From positions 1-64,000 of the forward strand of contig JTLC01000028.1 of assembly GCA_000798955.1 (NCBI GenBank): a DNA stretch of 64,000 nt, in the 5' to 3' direction. Below are positions 9,836 through 60,599 of this stretch, piece after piece. How positions within the stretch are numbered: position 1 is the first letter of the stretch; each line of letters starts with the position of its first letter. The translations under genes and the position numbers were made by a program. The notes below the pieces were generated by a model. That model did not search any database and was not told the DNA's origin. It saw nothing but the letters and a program-made list of their open reading frames with translations. Source of the DNA: Firmicutes bacterium ZOR0006. Lineage in GTDB: Bacteria; Bacillota_I; Bacilli_A; Culicoidibacterales; ZOR0006.

Positions 9836-9871
9836 GAGAAAAATACAAAGAGTATGAGGGGAGTGGGGTAT

Positions 9872-10372
9872 ATGAACATCGAATTTTTACTCATCATGTT
9901 CACTGTCTTACTATTAATTGCGTTGTATGCGGTTTGGGAATACAACAATCTTGTGAGTTTTCGGACACGCATTGATAATGCGTGGAATCAATTCCACGAG
10001 TTGATTGTTTCGCGGCGAATGATTGTGCTCCAATTTGTGAGCCTGGAGCAATTACCGGTTTCAACTGAGCAAAAAAATCAGTTAACCGCATTAATTGAAA
10101 CGGCTAAAAATGCAAAAACTGTCAGTGAAACATTAACAGTTGAAAAGCAAATTACGGAATTACTAGCTGCTATTTTTGATACACCTGAGTTTTTCGCGGA
10201 TAGTGCGAATGGCAATGCGTTACGGACATTGCATAACTTGGATCAACGTTTAGCACTTGCACAAATGATGTATAATGACATTGTCATTATTTATTTGAAT
10301 AAACTTGAAAGCTTCCCGACGAATATCATTGCGAGTATCTATGGGTTTAAAGCGGAAAGTTTAAACGAGTAA
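9872..10372 (+). CDS. lemA: LemA family protein
   Basis: LemA-type membrane protein of unknown biochemical role. One N-terminal transmembrane helix (residues about 4-22) is followed by a helical bundle. Family hallmarks are YNNLVSFRTRIDNAWNQF near the N-terminus and YNDIVIIYLNKLESFPTNIIASIYGFK at the C-terminus. 166 aa, slightly short. ATG 9872 is preferred over 9854 because GAGGGGAG lies just upstream. Single-gene unit; the htpX protease gene that often neighbours lemA in Bacilli is not here. Confidence 0.88.
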   Translation: MNIEFLLIMFTVLLLIALYAVWEYNNLVSFRTRIDNAWNQFHELIVSRRMIVLQFVSLEQLPVSTEQKNQLTALIETAKNAKTVSETLTVEKQITELLAAIFDTPEFFADSANGNALRTLHNLDQRLALAQMMYNDIVIIYLNKLESFPTNIIASIYGFKAESLNE

Positions 10373-12126: not shown

Positions 12127-12278
12127 AAAAATTCCTCTCTTTCACAGTAATCCTAACTTAATTTGACAAAAGATGCAATTATTTTAGGGAAATGATTAGT
12201 AAATTTTATGCTGAAAGATAAAACAAAAACTCTTATAATGAATGAAGTGAAAATTCAAAAAAGGGGTAACATTATCTT

Positions 12279-12845
12279 ATGGGAAAAGCTCAGAAAATTT
12301 TAAAAGCGCAATGGAAAAATACACCATTGTGGACAAAGGTGCTGGCAAGTGCTTTCCTTATTTGGTCAGTATTTTATTTTGTTGATGCGGCTTTAATTTT
12401 TTTAGGTCAAAATTCACTAGCAATTACTGGTCAAACATTTGAGGCGTATACACTGGTTCTTAAAATTTTGGTGGGGGTCCAACTAATTCTCCTAGTAATT
12501 CATATTATCGATATTTTCAATCAAAAAACGGTGATGAATCCAAATATTCAGAATGGAAGTAAACAAATGCGTCTCTACGTTCGTAAAATTCACCCACTAC
12601 TAGGGATGAGTGTGATTACAATGGCACTTGCGCATTCACTGTGGAATTTTGCACAATTTTTCACTTTTTCATGGCCGTGGTCAGTGCAAATAATCAGTGG
12701 CATTGGGGGAATAATACTGTTGATTCTAATAGCAGTGAGTGGTGATGGCATTCTTTTTGCTCCAGCACAAAGACGTCAAAAAATTATCTTGATTCACACG
12801 ATTATTGTACTTATCTTTTTAATTCCATTTTTTATTCATATTTAA
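12279..12845 (+). CDS. Four-helix membrane protein, putative di-heme b-type
   Basis: Unknown protein of 188 aa with about four hydrophobic segments (residues about 20-42, 60-82, 105-130 and 135-155) and a final one at 165-188. Two helices each carry histidines exactly 14 residues apart: KIHPLLGMSVITMALAH and IHTIIVLIFLIPFFIH. Such H-x13-H pairs on two helices ligate two b hemes in ferric-reductase-like and cytochrome b proteins. No flavin domain is present. Heme binding is therefore inference. A TATAAT lies at 12234-12239, and AAAAAGGGGT is a slightly distant RBS. Confidence 0.7.
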   Translation: MGKAQKILKAQWKNTPLWTKVLASAFLIWSVFYFVDAALIFLGQNSLAITGQTFEAYTLVLKILVGVQLILLVIHIIDIFNQKTVMNPNIQNGSKQMRLYVRKIHPLLGMSVITMALAHSLWNFAQFFTFSWPWSVQIISGIGGIILLILIAVSGDGILFAPAQRRQKIILIHTIIVLIFLIPFFIHI

Positions 12846-42063: not shown

Positions 42064-42535
42064 AATTGCGATTTATTCGGGTAGTTTTGATCCAATCACT
42101 AACGGGCATATTGATATCGTTGAGCGAGCAGCTAAAATATTTACGGAGCTACACGTCGTCGTTTTAAATAATCCGAAAAAACGCTATTTATTTAGCAGTG
42201 ATGAGCGTAAAGAAATGATTAGTAAAGCAGTTGCACATCTTCCCAATGTTCATGTTAGTACGTTTGGGGGATTGGTAGTTCATGCAGCGAGAGCTCATAA
42301 TGCCTGTGTGATTATTCGGGGATTACGAGCGATTACTGATTTTGAATATGAAATGAAGATGGCGTCAGCAAATAAAATGTTAGACCCAGAAATTGAGACG
42401 TTCTTCTTGATGACAAGTAACGAATTTTCTTTTTTAAGTTCAACAGTTGTGAAAGAAATTGCTACGTTTAAAGGTGATATTAGTAAGCTTGTACCAACTC
42501 ATGTCAAAGAAGCGGTGGAAGCAAAGTATGAATAG
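42041..42535 (+). CDS. coaD: Phosphopantetheine adenylyltransferase
   Basis: Penultimate step of coenzyme A synthesis: 4'-phosphopantetheine + ATP to dephospho-CoA. About 164 aa with GSFDPITNGHIDIVERA (TxGH nucleotidyltransferase motif), RGLRAITDFEYE and the C-terminal SFLSSTVVKE. Overlaps rsmD by 23 bp; GAGGATG serves as RBS. ATG 42044 is an equal alternative. Confidence 0.96.
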   Translation: MMTPPTNKIAIYSGSFDPITNGHIDIVERAAKIFTELHVVVLNNPKKRYLFSSDERKEMISKAVAHLPNVHVSTFGGLVVHAARAHNACVIIRGLRAITDFEYEMKMASANKMLDPEIETFFLMTSNEFSFLSSTVVKEIATFKGDISKLVPTHVKEAVEAKYE

Positions 42536-43226
42536 AAATTGGGAGCTTACATCACTCAGCCTGAAAATCATAGCTGTGATTACGATGACAATTGATCATA
42601 TTGGTTATTTTCTCGATGGACCATTGTGGTTACGAGCGATTGGACGAATTGCCTTTGTGCTTTTTGCCTTTGTTGTAGCTGAGGGTTTTACAAAGACACG
42701 GAGTCGAGTGAAATATCTTCAACGACTTGCGACATTTGGATTTGGGATGACACTCCTCGTTTTTATTTTCAGTTCGGTGACCCAAAACTTTACGTTGTTG
42801 AGCAATGGCAATATCTTTTTAACTTTTTATTTTGCGTTACTTATTACAACGGGAATGAATCGTGGGGATACCTTCGGGCTAGGCCAAATTATTGCCGGGT
42901 TAGTCGGGACAGTTTTATTTGCAGTTGACTATAGCTTTTATGGTATCATGACAGTCATCCTCTTTATATATTTCCAAGGAAATATCAAAAAGCAATTCTT
43001 CGGATTTTTGGCGATTAATGCCATTTTTTATGGGCCTGCACTACTGACATATGGACTTTGGAGCCCATATTCACTGCAAATATACTCATTAGTTGCTTTT
43101 GTGTTTATCGCGTTTTACAGAGGGAAACTCGGATATAGTAATACATTTACAAAATATTTCTTTTATTGGTACTATCCAATTCACATCGGTATTTTAGCAG
43201 CTTTAGGACAAGTGATTCATTTGTAG
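42528..43226 (+). CDS. TraX-family membrane protein
   Basis: 232-aa polytopic protein (about seven to eight helices) of the TraX family: TMTIDHIGYFL near the N-terminus, then RAIGRIAFVLFAFVVAEGF. TraX of F plasmid acetylates pilin; the role of chromosomal Bacillota members is unknown, with acyltransfer to envelope components the usual guess. ATG 42528 overlaps coaD by 8 bp, so it is coupled to a translation/CoA operon rather than to conjugation genes. Confidence 0.86.
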   Translation: MNRNWELTSLSLKIIAVITMTIDHIGYFLDGPLWLRAIGRIAFVLFAFVVAEGFTKTRSRVKYLQRLATFGFGMTLLVFIFSSVTQNFTLLSNGNIFLTFYFALLITTGMNRGDTFGLGQIIAGLVGTVLFAVDYSFYGIMTVILFIYFQGNIKKQFFGFLAINAIFYGPALLTYGLWSPYSLQIYSLVAFVFIAFYRGKLGYSNTFTKYFFYWYYPIHIGILAALGQVIHL

Positions 43227-44619: not shown

Positions 44620-45849
44620 GTGATTACAGTTATTTTAGATTCGGCCCAAGCTGCCTTTATGCATGTCGGGATTTTACTCACAACAGTATTAGTAGCAGTG
44701 AGTATTCTTAACTATTTAACAAAAGGAAGCTGGGTACAAAAAATTGAACAAACAAAGAAAGTTCAACCACTTTTTGCTTCAGCCTTAGGAGGAAGTCCAG
44801 GAGATGGTACCACGATGATGTTGGTACCACTATATGCCCGTGGGCATTTAAGTTTTGGTTCGATGATTGCAACCTATTTAAATACAACAGGTGACTCATC
44901 TTTTGTTGTAATGGCAGCAAGCTTACCATTGTTTATTTTCTTATTTACAATTAAGTTCCTGATTGGGACAATCAGTGCATATATCTTGGATTTTTTGGGG
45001 ATTGGTAAAAAAATTTGGCAAGCTGATTACCAAGCAGTGATGACCAAAACACCAAGTCATGAAGAGGTCGAAGATGCGGAACATGAAACTGAGCTGACAC
45101 GTTCAGAACGTTTTTTTGGTCAAAATCCTACCAAACGCCCTGAACATATCGGTCACTTTGAAGGCGATGAATTTGATGTCATCTTACACCATCAAGAAAA
45201 TGAAACATCAACAGAAAAATTTGCTTTATTGCATAGCGTACTATATCTCGTCTACTGGGGATTTATTATTTTCTCTTTACTCTTAAATATTCCAGTGATT
45301 GATTTTTCTGTTTTCCGCAGTATTGGTATTGATGTTACTGCAATTGCGCCACTTTTTAGTGTAGTTGCCATTCTGTATTGCGTGGGATATACGATTATTG
45401 CCCAAAAGATATGGTCTGATAATAATCATGAAGAGGAAGAGAGTCGGATGCTAAATTTACGTGAGCTTTTCATTCACAATGCCGAAAAAGCAGCATCATT
45501 AATTAGTAAAATCTTCTTAGCATACGTCTTTTTTAATGGTATTGTTGCTCTCATTGGTGAAGCAACGATTGCTCAATACTTTGCTCAAGCGGGAATAGCG
45601 AGTATTTTTCTTGCTGTTGTAATTGCAATGATTCCCGGATGTGGTCCTCAAGTTGCTTTTGCAACATTGACATTTGGAAGTGGTGGGTTAATTCCATTAT
45701 CAGCCTTAATCGCGAATCAAGTGGCACAACTAGGTGATTCAGCATTTGTTGGTTTGTCATTAGCACGACGATCAACGACAGTAGCAATTATATTAAATGC
45801 TGCCATTGGGTTAGTTGTTGGCTTAATTGCGTATTTTATTGGTATTTAA
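44620..45849 (+). CDS. Putative 10-TM metal exporter (ArsP_2/PF11449-like)
   Basis: 409-aa polytopic protein with two related halves, each with a glycine-rich signature: SALGGSPGDGTTMMLVPLY with ATYLNTTGDSSF, and IPGCGPQVAFATL with NQVAQLGDSAF. This matches the family called putative 10-TM heavy-metal or manganese transporter. A charged, His- and acid-containing cytoplasmic loop (about residues 140-205) separates the halves and may sense or bind metal. Starts with GTG at 44620 behind GAGAGGAG. Substrate unproven. Confidence 0.82.
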   Translation: MITVILDSAQAAFMHVGILLTTVLVAVSILNYLTKGSWVQKIEQTKKVQPLFASALGGSPGDGTTMMLVPLYARGHLSFGSMIATYLNTTGDSSFVVMAASLPLFIFLFTIKFLIGTISAYILDFLGIGKKIWQADYQAVMTKTPSHEEVEDAEHETELTRSERFFGQNPTKRPEHIGHFEGDEFDVILHHQENETSTEKFALLHSVLYLVYWGFIIFSLLLNIPVIDFSVFRSIGIDVTAIAPLFSVVAILYCVGYTIIAQKIWSDNNHEEEESRMLNLRELFIHNAEKAASLISKIFLAYVFFNGIVALIGEATIAQYFAQAGIASIFLAVVIAMIPGCGPQVAFATLTFGSGGLIPLSALIANQVAQLGDSAFVGLSLARRSTTVAIILNAAIGLVVGLIAYFIGI

Positions 45850-45875: not shown

Positions 45876-45891
45876 TATGAAAACAAAAAAC

Positions 45892-45961
45892 TTGCAAAAA
45901 AAACCGATAAGAATTATAATTAAATTACAAAAAAGTCGTTTATGCAGACTTTTGTTTTTTT
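45892..45961 (+). promoter_or_regulatory. Promoter followed by terminator-like leader
   Basis: TTGCAA (45892-45897), 17-bp spacer, TATAAT (45915-45920). Only about 10 bp beyond the predicted start lies AAAGTC-n9-GACTTTTGTTTTTT (45932-45960), which looks like an early terminator. It may be an attenuator for the gene at 46018 or the end of a tiny RNA. Confidence 0.5.
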
Positions 45962-46017
45962 ATGTTGAATTTAAGTTGGAAAAAAAGGAATTTGAAATTA
46001 AGGCGGTGTGGGAGCAA

Positions 46018-46401
46018 ATGGGTCGAAAGCTACTATTACGGTGGTCGCCAACAATTGTAATTTTGGGATTTATAGTATTTATTATTTTAGAAAAATATTT
46101 CTGTGTGCATAAAGAGACAGTCAATGATTTTCTCATTACGATGATTTTTTTACTTATTGTTTTACCGATTATCTTTTTATTGCAGGGGATGTACAGTTAT
46201 TATTTTAATCAAAACATTCAAAAGAATTATGTCATTTCGTTGGGAATTTGGATGGTGAGTAGTTTGATTGTCGCACCAGAAGCAAACAGTATTTATGTTT
46301 TTATTTATAGTATTTGCTTTTGGTTAGGAGTATTAATTACATGGCTATTTAAGCGGACCTATGTGCCATTGGGCGATTATGATGCATCGGAAGAAGTTTA
46401 A
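46018..46401 (+). CDS. Membrane protein of unknown function
   Basis: 127 aa with four hydrophobic helices (about 14-32, 45-68, 82-98, 100-118) and an acidic tail. Not recognised. The frame is open further upstream to 45877 but that part runs through the leader hairpin; ATG 46018 follows GTGGGAG closely. No terminator before the leuS leader. Confidence 0.6.
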   Translation: MGRKLLLRWSPTIVILGFIVFIILEKYFCVHKETVNDFLITMIFLLIVLPIIFLLQGMYSYYFNQNIQKNYVISLGIWMVSSLIVAPEANSIYVFIYSICFWLGVLITWLFKRTYVPLGDYDASEEV

Positions 46402-55692: not shown

Positions 55693-56850
55693 ATGGACCA
55701 AGCACAAGCAGTTTATCTCCATATCCCCTTTTGTGATGAAATTTGTGAGTATTGTGATTTTGCGAAGGTATATTATCAAAGCCAACAACGCGATGCCTAT
55801 TTAGCGGCACTGGAGCGTGAAGTTGTGCTGACATTGGCAAAATATCCATTAGTAAAACCAATTCAAACTTTGTATTTAGGTGGTGGAACGCCAACCGCTT
55901 TGAACTTAGCGGAGCTTGAACAATTATTTACGATTATTAATCGCTATTTTCGACCTTTTTTTGCTCCTCATATTGAGCTGACAATTGAGGCTAATCCAGA
56001 TTCATTGACAGAAGAAAAGTTAGCCTATTTAGCACAACAAGGTGTCAATCGCTTAAGCATTGGCGTTCAAACGTTCCAAGAAAAGCATCTTGCAAAAATG
56101 GGACGGACGCATACAACCGCTCAAGTCAAAGACGTCATTGCCAAGGCAAAAGTAGCTGGCTTTACGAACATCAATGTCGATTTTATTTATGGGATTCCGG
56201 GGCAAACTGAGGCTGAAGTTGTCGCTGATATTGAAGCGTTTTTACAATTAGATATTCAACATATTTCGACCTATGCGTTAATTATCGAACCACACACGAA
56301 ATTTTATGTGCAACAAAAACGCGGACAACTCGAAGAAACGGCCGATGAAGTCGAAGCGCAAATGTATGCCTTGATTCAAGCTGCGTTACGCGAGCATGGT
56401 TATGAGCAATATGAATTAAGTAATTTCGCTCGTCCAGGTTTTGGGAGTCGGCACAATTTAACGTACTGGCAGAATTTACCATATTATGGTTTCGGTCTTG
56501 GTGCTCATGGTTATTTAGCAAATGAACGCTATGCCAATACCCGCGCGATTACTGCCTATCTCAAAAAATTGGCAGCTAATGAATTACCGATTACCGAAGC
56601 ACACGTTCTAACACGTCAAGAACAGATTGAAGAAACTGTATTTCTTGGTTTACGGACGCAAGCAGGAGTAAATAAAGCGAATTTTGCCAAGCGTTTTGGG
56701 GAAACACTGAATACAATTTATGGAGATGTGATTGCTGAGCATCAGCGGAAAGGGTGGATTATTGAGACCCCAACTGCAATTTGTTTAGCACCAGATACCC
56801 TCTTTATTGCCAATCAAATTATGAGTGATTATTTACTCGATGAAGCGTAG
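55693..56850 (+). CDS. hemW: Radical-SAM heme chaperone HemW
   Basis: HemN-like radical-SAM protein. Cluster motif C-DEI-C-EY-C (residues about 15-22) after VYLHIPF, then TLYLGGGTPTAL, and a C-terminal HemN domain. It lacks the residues needed for true oxygen-independent coproporphyrinogen oxidase and is of the HemW type, a heme-insertion chaperone. 385 aa. It suggests the cell handles heme, which fits the putative di-heme protein at 12279; no heme-synthesis genes are here. Confidence 0.93.
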   Translation: MDQAQAVYLHIPFCDEICEYCDFAKVYYQSQQRDAYLAALEREVVLTLAKYPLVKPIQTLYLGGGTPTALNLAELEQLFTIINRYFRPFFAPHIELTIEANPDSLTEEKLAYLAQQGVNRLSIGVQTFQEKHLAKMGRTHTTAQVKDVIAKAKVAGFTNINVDFIYGIPGQTEAEVVADIEAFLQLDIQHISTYALIIEPHTKFYVQQKRGQLEETADEVEAQMYALIQAALREHGYEQYELSNFARPGFGSRHNLTYWQNLPYYGFGLGAHGYLANERYANTRAITAYLKKLAANELPITEAHVLTRQEQIEETVFLGLRTQAGVNKANFAKRFGETLNTIYGDVIAEHQRKGWIIETPTAICLAPDTLFIANQIMSDYLLDEA

Positions 56851-60131: not shown

Positions 60132-60599
60132 ATGAGGGTATTTATTGGCTATAAATTGACAAAAATGAGTTGTAATCAACTTGAAAAATGGCAATGTGAA
60201 AGTGGTTTATCATCAACAGCCAAGTTCGTTTTGCCAAAAAATTTTCACCTAACGCTACTCTACAACGGTGAATTAACACCAGAACAACTTGAAAAATATC
60301 TCGAAAAGTTACACAAACAGCAGTGGGAAAAATATGAGGAATGCCAGATTTTAGGGTTGACAACATTCACTAAAAAAAACCAACATATTATTGTTGCTGA
60401 GGTAGAAAACACGCCTGCATTACAAGCAAATCGAGAGTATATTCGAAGTATTAGCGAGGAGTTGAAGCTTCCTTTTAGTGATGAATATAACTGGAAACCA
60501 CATATCACATTAGCTCGTCAAAAAGATGAAAAAATCGAAAAAAAATTTCAGAAAAAAATTCAAAATGACAAATTTAAGTTTAATTGTTTTCACATCTAA
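60132..60599 (+). CDS. 2H phosphoesterase (RNA 2',3'-cyclic phosphodiesterase-like)
   Basis: 155 aa of the LigT/ThpR superfamily. The two catalytic HxTx motifs are present: HLTL (NFHLTLLYNG, about residue 40) and HITL (WKPHITLAR, about residue 132). Family members hydrolyse 2',3'-cyclic phosphate or related bonds in RNA or nucleotides. Somewhat short, with a Lys-rich C-terminus. Strong RBS AAGGAGA. Confidence 0.85.
   Translation: MRVFIGYKLTKMSCNQLEKWQCESGLSSTAKFVLPKNFHLTLLYNGELTPEQLEKYLEKLHKQQWEKYEECQILGLTTFTKKNQHIIVAEVENTPALQANREYIRSISEELKLPFSDEYNWKPHITLARQKDEKIEKKFQKKIQNDKFKFNCFHI

Follow-up and report, generated by a model that had tools for sequence, protein, structure and literature searches.

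We identified in Firmicutes bacterium ZOR0006 the gene of an orphan membrane protein of 188 amino acids that is a candidate two-heme b protein. The gene is located at positions 12279..12845 on the + strand of the window, which is the whole stretch of 64,000 nucleotides that was analysed. Its product contains five predicted transmembrane helices, and two of these each carry a pair of His residues exactly 14 residues apart (H-x13-H). It is possible, and we propose it tentatively, that the protein is a minimal ferric reductase-like (FRD-like) transmembrane di-heme b wire of five helices that is fed by a flavoprotein. This two-heme conduit is slightly the best reading, and a coincidental placement of the His residues is close behind it. 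The His pattern and the membrane topology match the scheme of FRD and NOX proteins, whereas the sequence tests give no family membership; the FRD-like di-heme reading offered by the first-pass annotation is thus retained for the architecture and not for the family.

The open reading frame (ORF) is a credible gene, because its codon usage is in frame, a promoter-like match is present and AAAGGGG precedes the ATG. The codon-usage score was 0.14 in its own frame and at most -0.01 in the other five frames, and it falls within the range of 0.09-0.37 shown by the genes of the window. The promoter-like site CTGAAA-17-TATAAT (12211..12239, + strand) matches the consensus at 10 of 12 positions, which by itself is not evidence of function, and the likely ribosome binding site AAAGGGG (12260..12266, + strand), as read from the sequence, is 12 nt before the ATG. 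The chain stops at residue 188, right where the fifth helix (TM5) ends, and the next gene is pnp, whose start codon is located 81 bp past the stop codon of the ORF. No electron-transfer gene is present beside the ORF, which counts against the di-heme reading. A 23-nt direct repeat with 74% identity (12484-12506 and 12820-12842), coding for the ends of TM2 and TM5, was taken as chance.

The topology was predicted from hydropathy and charges, and all of the following coordinates are on the + strand. A K/R-rich cytosolic N-terminus is followed by TM1 (residues 18-43, 12330..12407), which runs from in to out, and by TM2 (residues 57-80, 12447..12518), which runs from out to in and carries H75 (12501-12503) near its inner end. 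A cytosolic loop free of D/E (residues 81-103, 12519..12587) leads to TM3 (residues 104-128, 12588..12662; HPLLGMSVITMALAH), which runs from in to out with H105 (12591-12593) at the inner and H119 (12633-12635) at the outer side. The glycine-rich TM4 (residues 134-157, 12678..12749), containing SGIGG, returns from out to in, and TM5 (residues 167-188, 12777..12842) again runs from in to out with H173 (12795-12797) at the inner and H187 (12837-12839) at the outer side. Four K/R residues precede TM1, five are in the loop between TM2 and TM3, two are in the loop between TM4 and TM5, and the outer loops have none. This positive-inside charge distribution indicates that TM3 and TM5 both run from in to out, with H105 and H173 predicted close to the cytosol and H119 and H187 close to the outside. 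Only one residue follows H187, so that a sixth helix is absent; both features count against the di-heme reading. TM3 is only mildly hydrophobic, and at a hydropathy threshold of 1.6 the ORF itself is missed. The hydrophobic moments, which are weak for both helices, place the His residues of TM3 away from the most hydrophobic face, while those of TM5 are not clearly so placed.

The His residues of the protein are at positions 75, 105, 119, 173 and 187. The first-pass annotation had described a small membrane protein with two H-x13-H helices at this locus, and this was borne out, with H105/H119 in TM3 and H173/H187 in TM5. The pairs had been put at about residues 107/121 and 173/187; the latter position is correct, whereas the former is two residues off. 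H75, near the inner face, had not been mentioned. When five His residues were placed at random in 188 amino acids, or when the sequence was shuffled, two H-x13-H pairs arose in 0.27-0.28% of the trials, a figure that has to be discounted because the annotation had sought anything striking. In a comparison of 99-120 ORFs predicted to have four or more TM segments, a sample that is small, enriched for FRD proteins gathered as such and dependent on the hydropathy threshold, two H-x13-H pairs within TM segments were found only in the present ORF. When H-x12/13-H was allowed in the same set, the extra ORFs were only FRD/NOX-type proteins (L063, L073 and L074). The His pattern is unusual, but because it was picked out post hoc it does not decide the matter.

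It is almost as likely as the di-heme reading that the product is an orphan, lineage-specific five-helix protein with a coincidental His spacing and no heme, which would have an unrelated role, for example as a small structural or immunity-type protein. A frequency of 0.27% is not rare when every ORF is scanned for notable motifs, which is in line with such a coincidence. However, the pairs are also in the right helices, in the right orientation and at matching depth, none of which is required by chance spacing, and the non-FRD multi-TM ORFs examined did not show the pattern.

In NOX2, His101 and His115 are in TM3 and His209 and His222 in TM5, with His101/His209 inner and His115/His222 outer (PMC3591440), and in SpNOX H69 and H129 are inner and H83 and H142 are outer (PMC11564096). 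The FRD superfamily (PF01794), which includes FRE, NOX and SpNOX, has four His residues in two pairs 13-14 apart in TM3 and TM5, and H105/H119 and H173/H187 agree with this arrangement. The in-to-out direction of both helices, the single helix between them, the inner and outer depth of the His residues and the TM3 spacing of 14 are likewise shared. In contrast, the 188-aa protein gives no profile match and has five hydrophobic segments instead of six TM helices. As the first-pass annotation had claimed, a flavin or NAD domain is absent, so that the FAD/NADPH dehydrogenase domain of NOX and long-form FRE has no counterpart. The TM5 spacing is 14 compared with 13 in SpNOX and NOX2; the H-x13-H of TM5, where bacterial NOX-type proteins have H-x12-H, counts against the di-heme reading.

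Short bacterial FRD proteins (YedZ/MsrQ-like proteins and the short forms of bFRE) resemble the 188-aa protein in being stand-alone membrane domains of ~200 amino acids with partner-supplied electrons. Most short FRD forms retain just two or three of the four His residues (PMC3591440), whereas the 188-aa protein has all four and no detectable sequence homology to them. The start of TM3 is VRxxxxxLG-like (VRKIHPLLG compared with VRREYSIIG), but the second His of TM3 is offset by three residues. The first TM3 His, which is replaced by a conserved Arg in MsrQ/YedZ, is present at position 105, and no msrP-like gene for an MsrP partner was seen beside the ORF among the neighbours read. Stand-alone FRD proteins of ~200 amino acids were found in other genomes of the class, and therefore a partner-fed design has precedent. 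Two stand-alone ferric-reductase-like proteins from other genomes of the class (L044 and L053) have an apparent fused C-terminal FMN-binding domain in open frames of 329 and 338 amino acids, which would be a fusion to an electron donor or acceptor. The N-terminal domain of cytochrome b (bc1/b6f type) is also di-heme, with two H-x13-H helices. The expected orientation of these helices is opposite to that of the 188-aa protein, and the latter gives no Pfam match.

The first-pass annotation had looked to profile comparison for a match to a ferric-reductase-like family, or else for a confident match to a non-heme family, and the family searches yielded neither. No meaningful match was obtained in Pfam, NCBIfam, PHROGs or PADLOC, and none among PDB sequences. 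PF01794 did not match the 188-aa protein at E<=10 by hmmscan, nor in the search of its own genome. The comparison set consisted of 20 PF01794 members of the class (stand-alone FRD proteins), plasmid NOX-type proteins, SpNOX and two full-length proteins. Against HMM profiles of MsrQ-like and NOX-like proteins the 188-aa protein did not outscore 1,000 TM-aware shuffles, and the same was true with hhalign. With a four-sequence profile, hhalign aligned RKIHPLLGMSVITMALAHSL in register to the TM3 heme helix of the plasmid FRD protein L073 at a non-significant E=0.15, and this alignment was not reproduced with a slightly different profile. The resemblance of TM3 (HPLLGMSVITMALAH) to HKWLGIWALALASVH of L073 was counted for the di-heme reading. 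Membership of the FRD superfamily is not supported by these comparisons. AlphaFold, run without an alignment, gave a model of low confidence (pLDDT 65.6, pTM 0.47) with five long helices and a short N-terminal one. It was too weak to place the His residues either face to face or far apart, the latter being what would have spoken against the first-pass annotation. With this low-confidence model as the query, Foldseek found no match in the PDB at E<=0.001 (best E 1.2), and the matches to quinol:fumarate reductase and hydrogenase cytochrome b at ranks 2-3 (E 1.5-2.0) were regarded as noise from a poor model.

For the FRD-like wire, we infer that two hemes would be bound between TM3 and TM5, the inner one by H105 and H173 and the outer one by H119 and H187. 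Electrons from a separate flavoprotein, either cytosolic or in the membrane, would move outward to reach a metal, oxygen or a partner protein as the acceptor on the outer face. The heme itself would be taken in from outside. If the di-heme claim is right, the protein functions like an FRD, yet it is not classed as a member of that superfamily. To our knowledge, it would then be the smallest ferric-reductase-type membrane wire, and one without the sixth helix.

Relatives of the 188-aa protein were searched for widely. None was found by exact peptide words in the genome contigs, none in viral contigs, plasmids or phages, and none in draws of 395, 392 and 388 partly overlapping genomes from the class and phylum, in searches that would miss very diverged relatives and those in metagenomes. 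The weak matches with E under 0.01 consisted of short pieces. Several of these ran across stop codons, and the inspected ones that had open frames of about 190-220 amino acids were LemA-family-like proteins. The window itself encodes a divergent LemA-family protein (9854-10372; PF04011) with a weak MamQ match too. In the same-genus genome, whose PNPase is 91% identical, the gap between the hydrolase gene and pnp is ~290 bp and the gene is absent. A degraded copy was looked for, and this gap contains no similar DNA. The hydrolase gene and pnp, which flank the ORF, are on different contigs in the order's next family. The gene was either gained in the ZOR0006 lineage or lost in its sister, and within the searches made the protein is an orphan of one species only. 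The absence of relatives, including that from the same-genus genome, is also what would be expected of a protein with coincidental His residues. If two hemes are bound, an orphan protein has reached or kept the FRD geometry without a recognisable sequence. It is rather unlikely that such a five-helix wire had an origin separate from that of ferric reductases and was kept by a heme-importing bacterium unable to finish heme synthesis. If no heme is bound, the protein is an orphan membrane protein of an ordinary kind, and it warns against inferring heme sites from His spacing alone.

The genome is 100% complete, and no match to ferrochelatase, CydA or PF01794 was found in it, although the controls were positive for each. 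All three absences count against the di-heme reading. Since no ferrochelatase was found, any heme that is used would need to be imported; the same result also favours a protein without heme. Binding of two hemes would thus point to the use of imported heme by a lineage that has Rnf but in which neither cytochrome bd nor ferrochelatase was seen. The Rnf-type cluster (G000:C34, L072; 2841-8876) encodes an FMN-binding lipoprotein, an RnfC-like protein, an RnfD-like protein with FMN_bind, an RnfG-like protein, further membrane subunits and ApbE, the names beyond FMN_bind being read from the sequence. The FMN-binding subunits and ApbE suggest that flavins account for at least part of the membrane redox chemistry. 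FMN_bind matches indicate an Rnf-type cluster in the same-genus genome as well. HemW is encoded in the window, as the first-pass annotation had pointed out (55693-56850; TIGR00539, E=3e-106), but at 43 kb from the ORF it is no evidence for the claim; a link to the 188-aa protein was rejected on this distance and because HemW is widespread.

With a low probability, the protein serves to carry, buffer or sense heme that a bacterium unable to make it has imported. Any heme would be taken up in the absence of ferrochelatase, HemW belongs to a heme chaperone family, and bis-His sites in membrane helices occur also in heme-trafficking proteins. However, no heme-uptake gene adjoins the ORF, and two sites stacked across the membrane fit electron transfer better than transport. 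It is quite improbable that the His residues bind zinc, iron or copper ions instead of heme for transport or sensing. H75, H105 and H173 are grouped at the inner side by predicted depth, as would fit a metal site, but no acidic or cysteine partners are in the membrane near the His positions and no metal transporter family is matched.

Several other genes of the window were observed in passing. A putative 10-TM heavy-metal exporter of the ArsP_2 family (44620-45849; PF11449, E=6e-43) is adjoined by a gene for an uncharacterised membrane protein of 174 amino acids without a family match (45877-46401). A TraX-family membrane protein (42459-43226; PF05857, E=3e-30) is encoded between coaD-like and rsmB-like genes, with no conjugative context visible around it. 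A 2H phosphoesterase (LigT-like; 60132-60599), located among ordinary chromosomal genes, is just above the cut-off for Acb1, which is an anti-CBASS family in Pfam.
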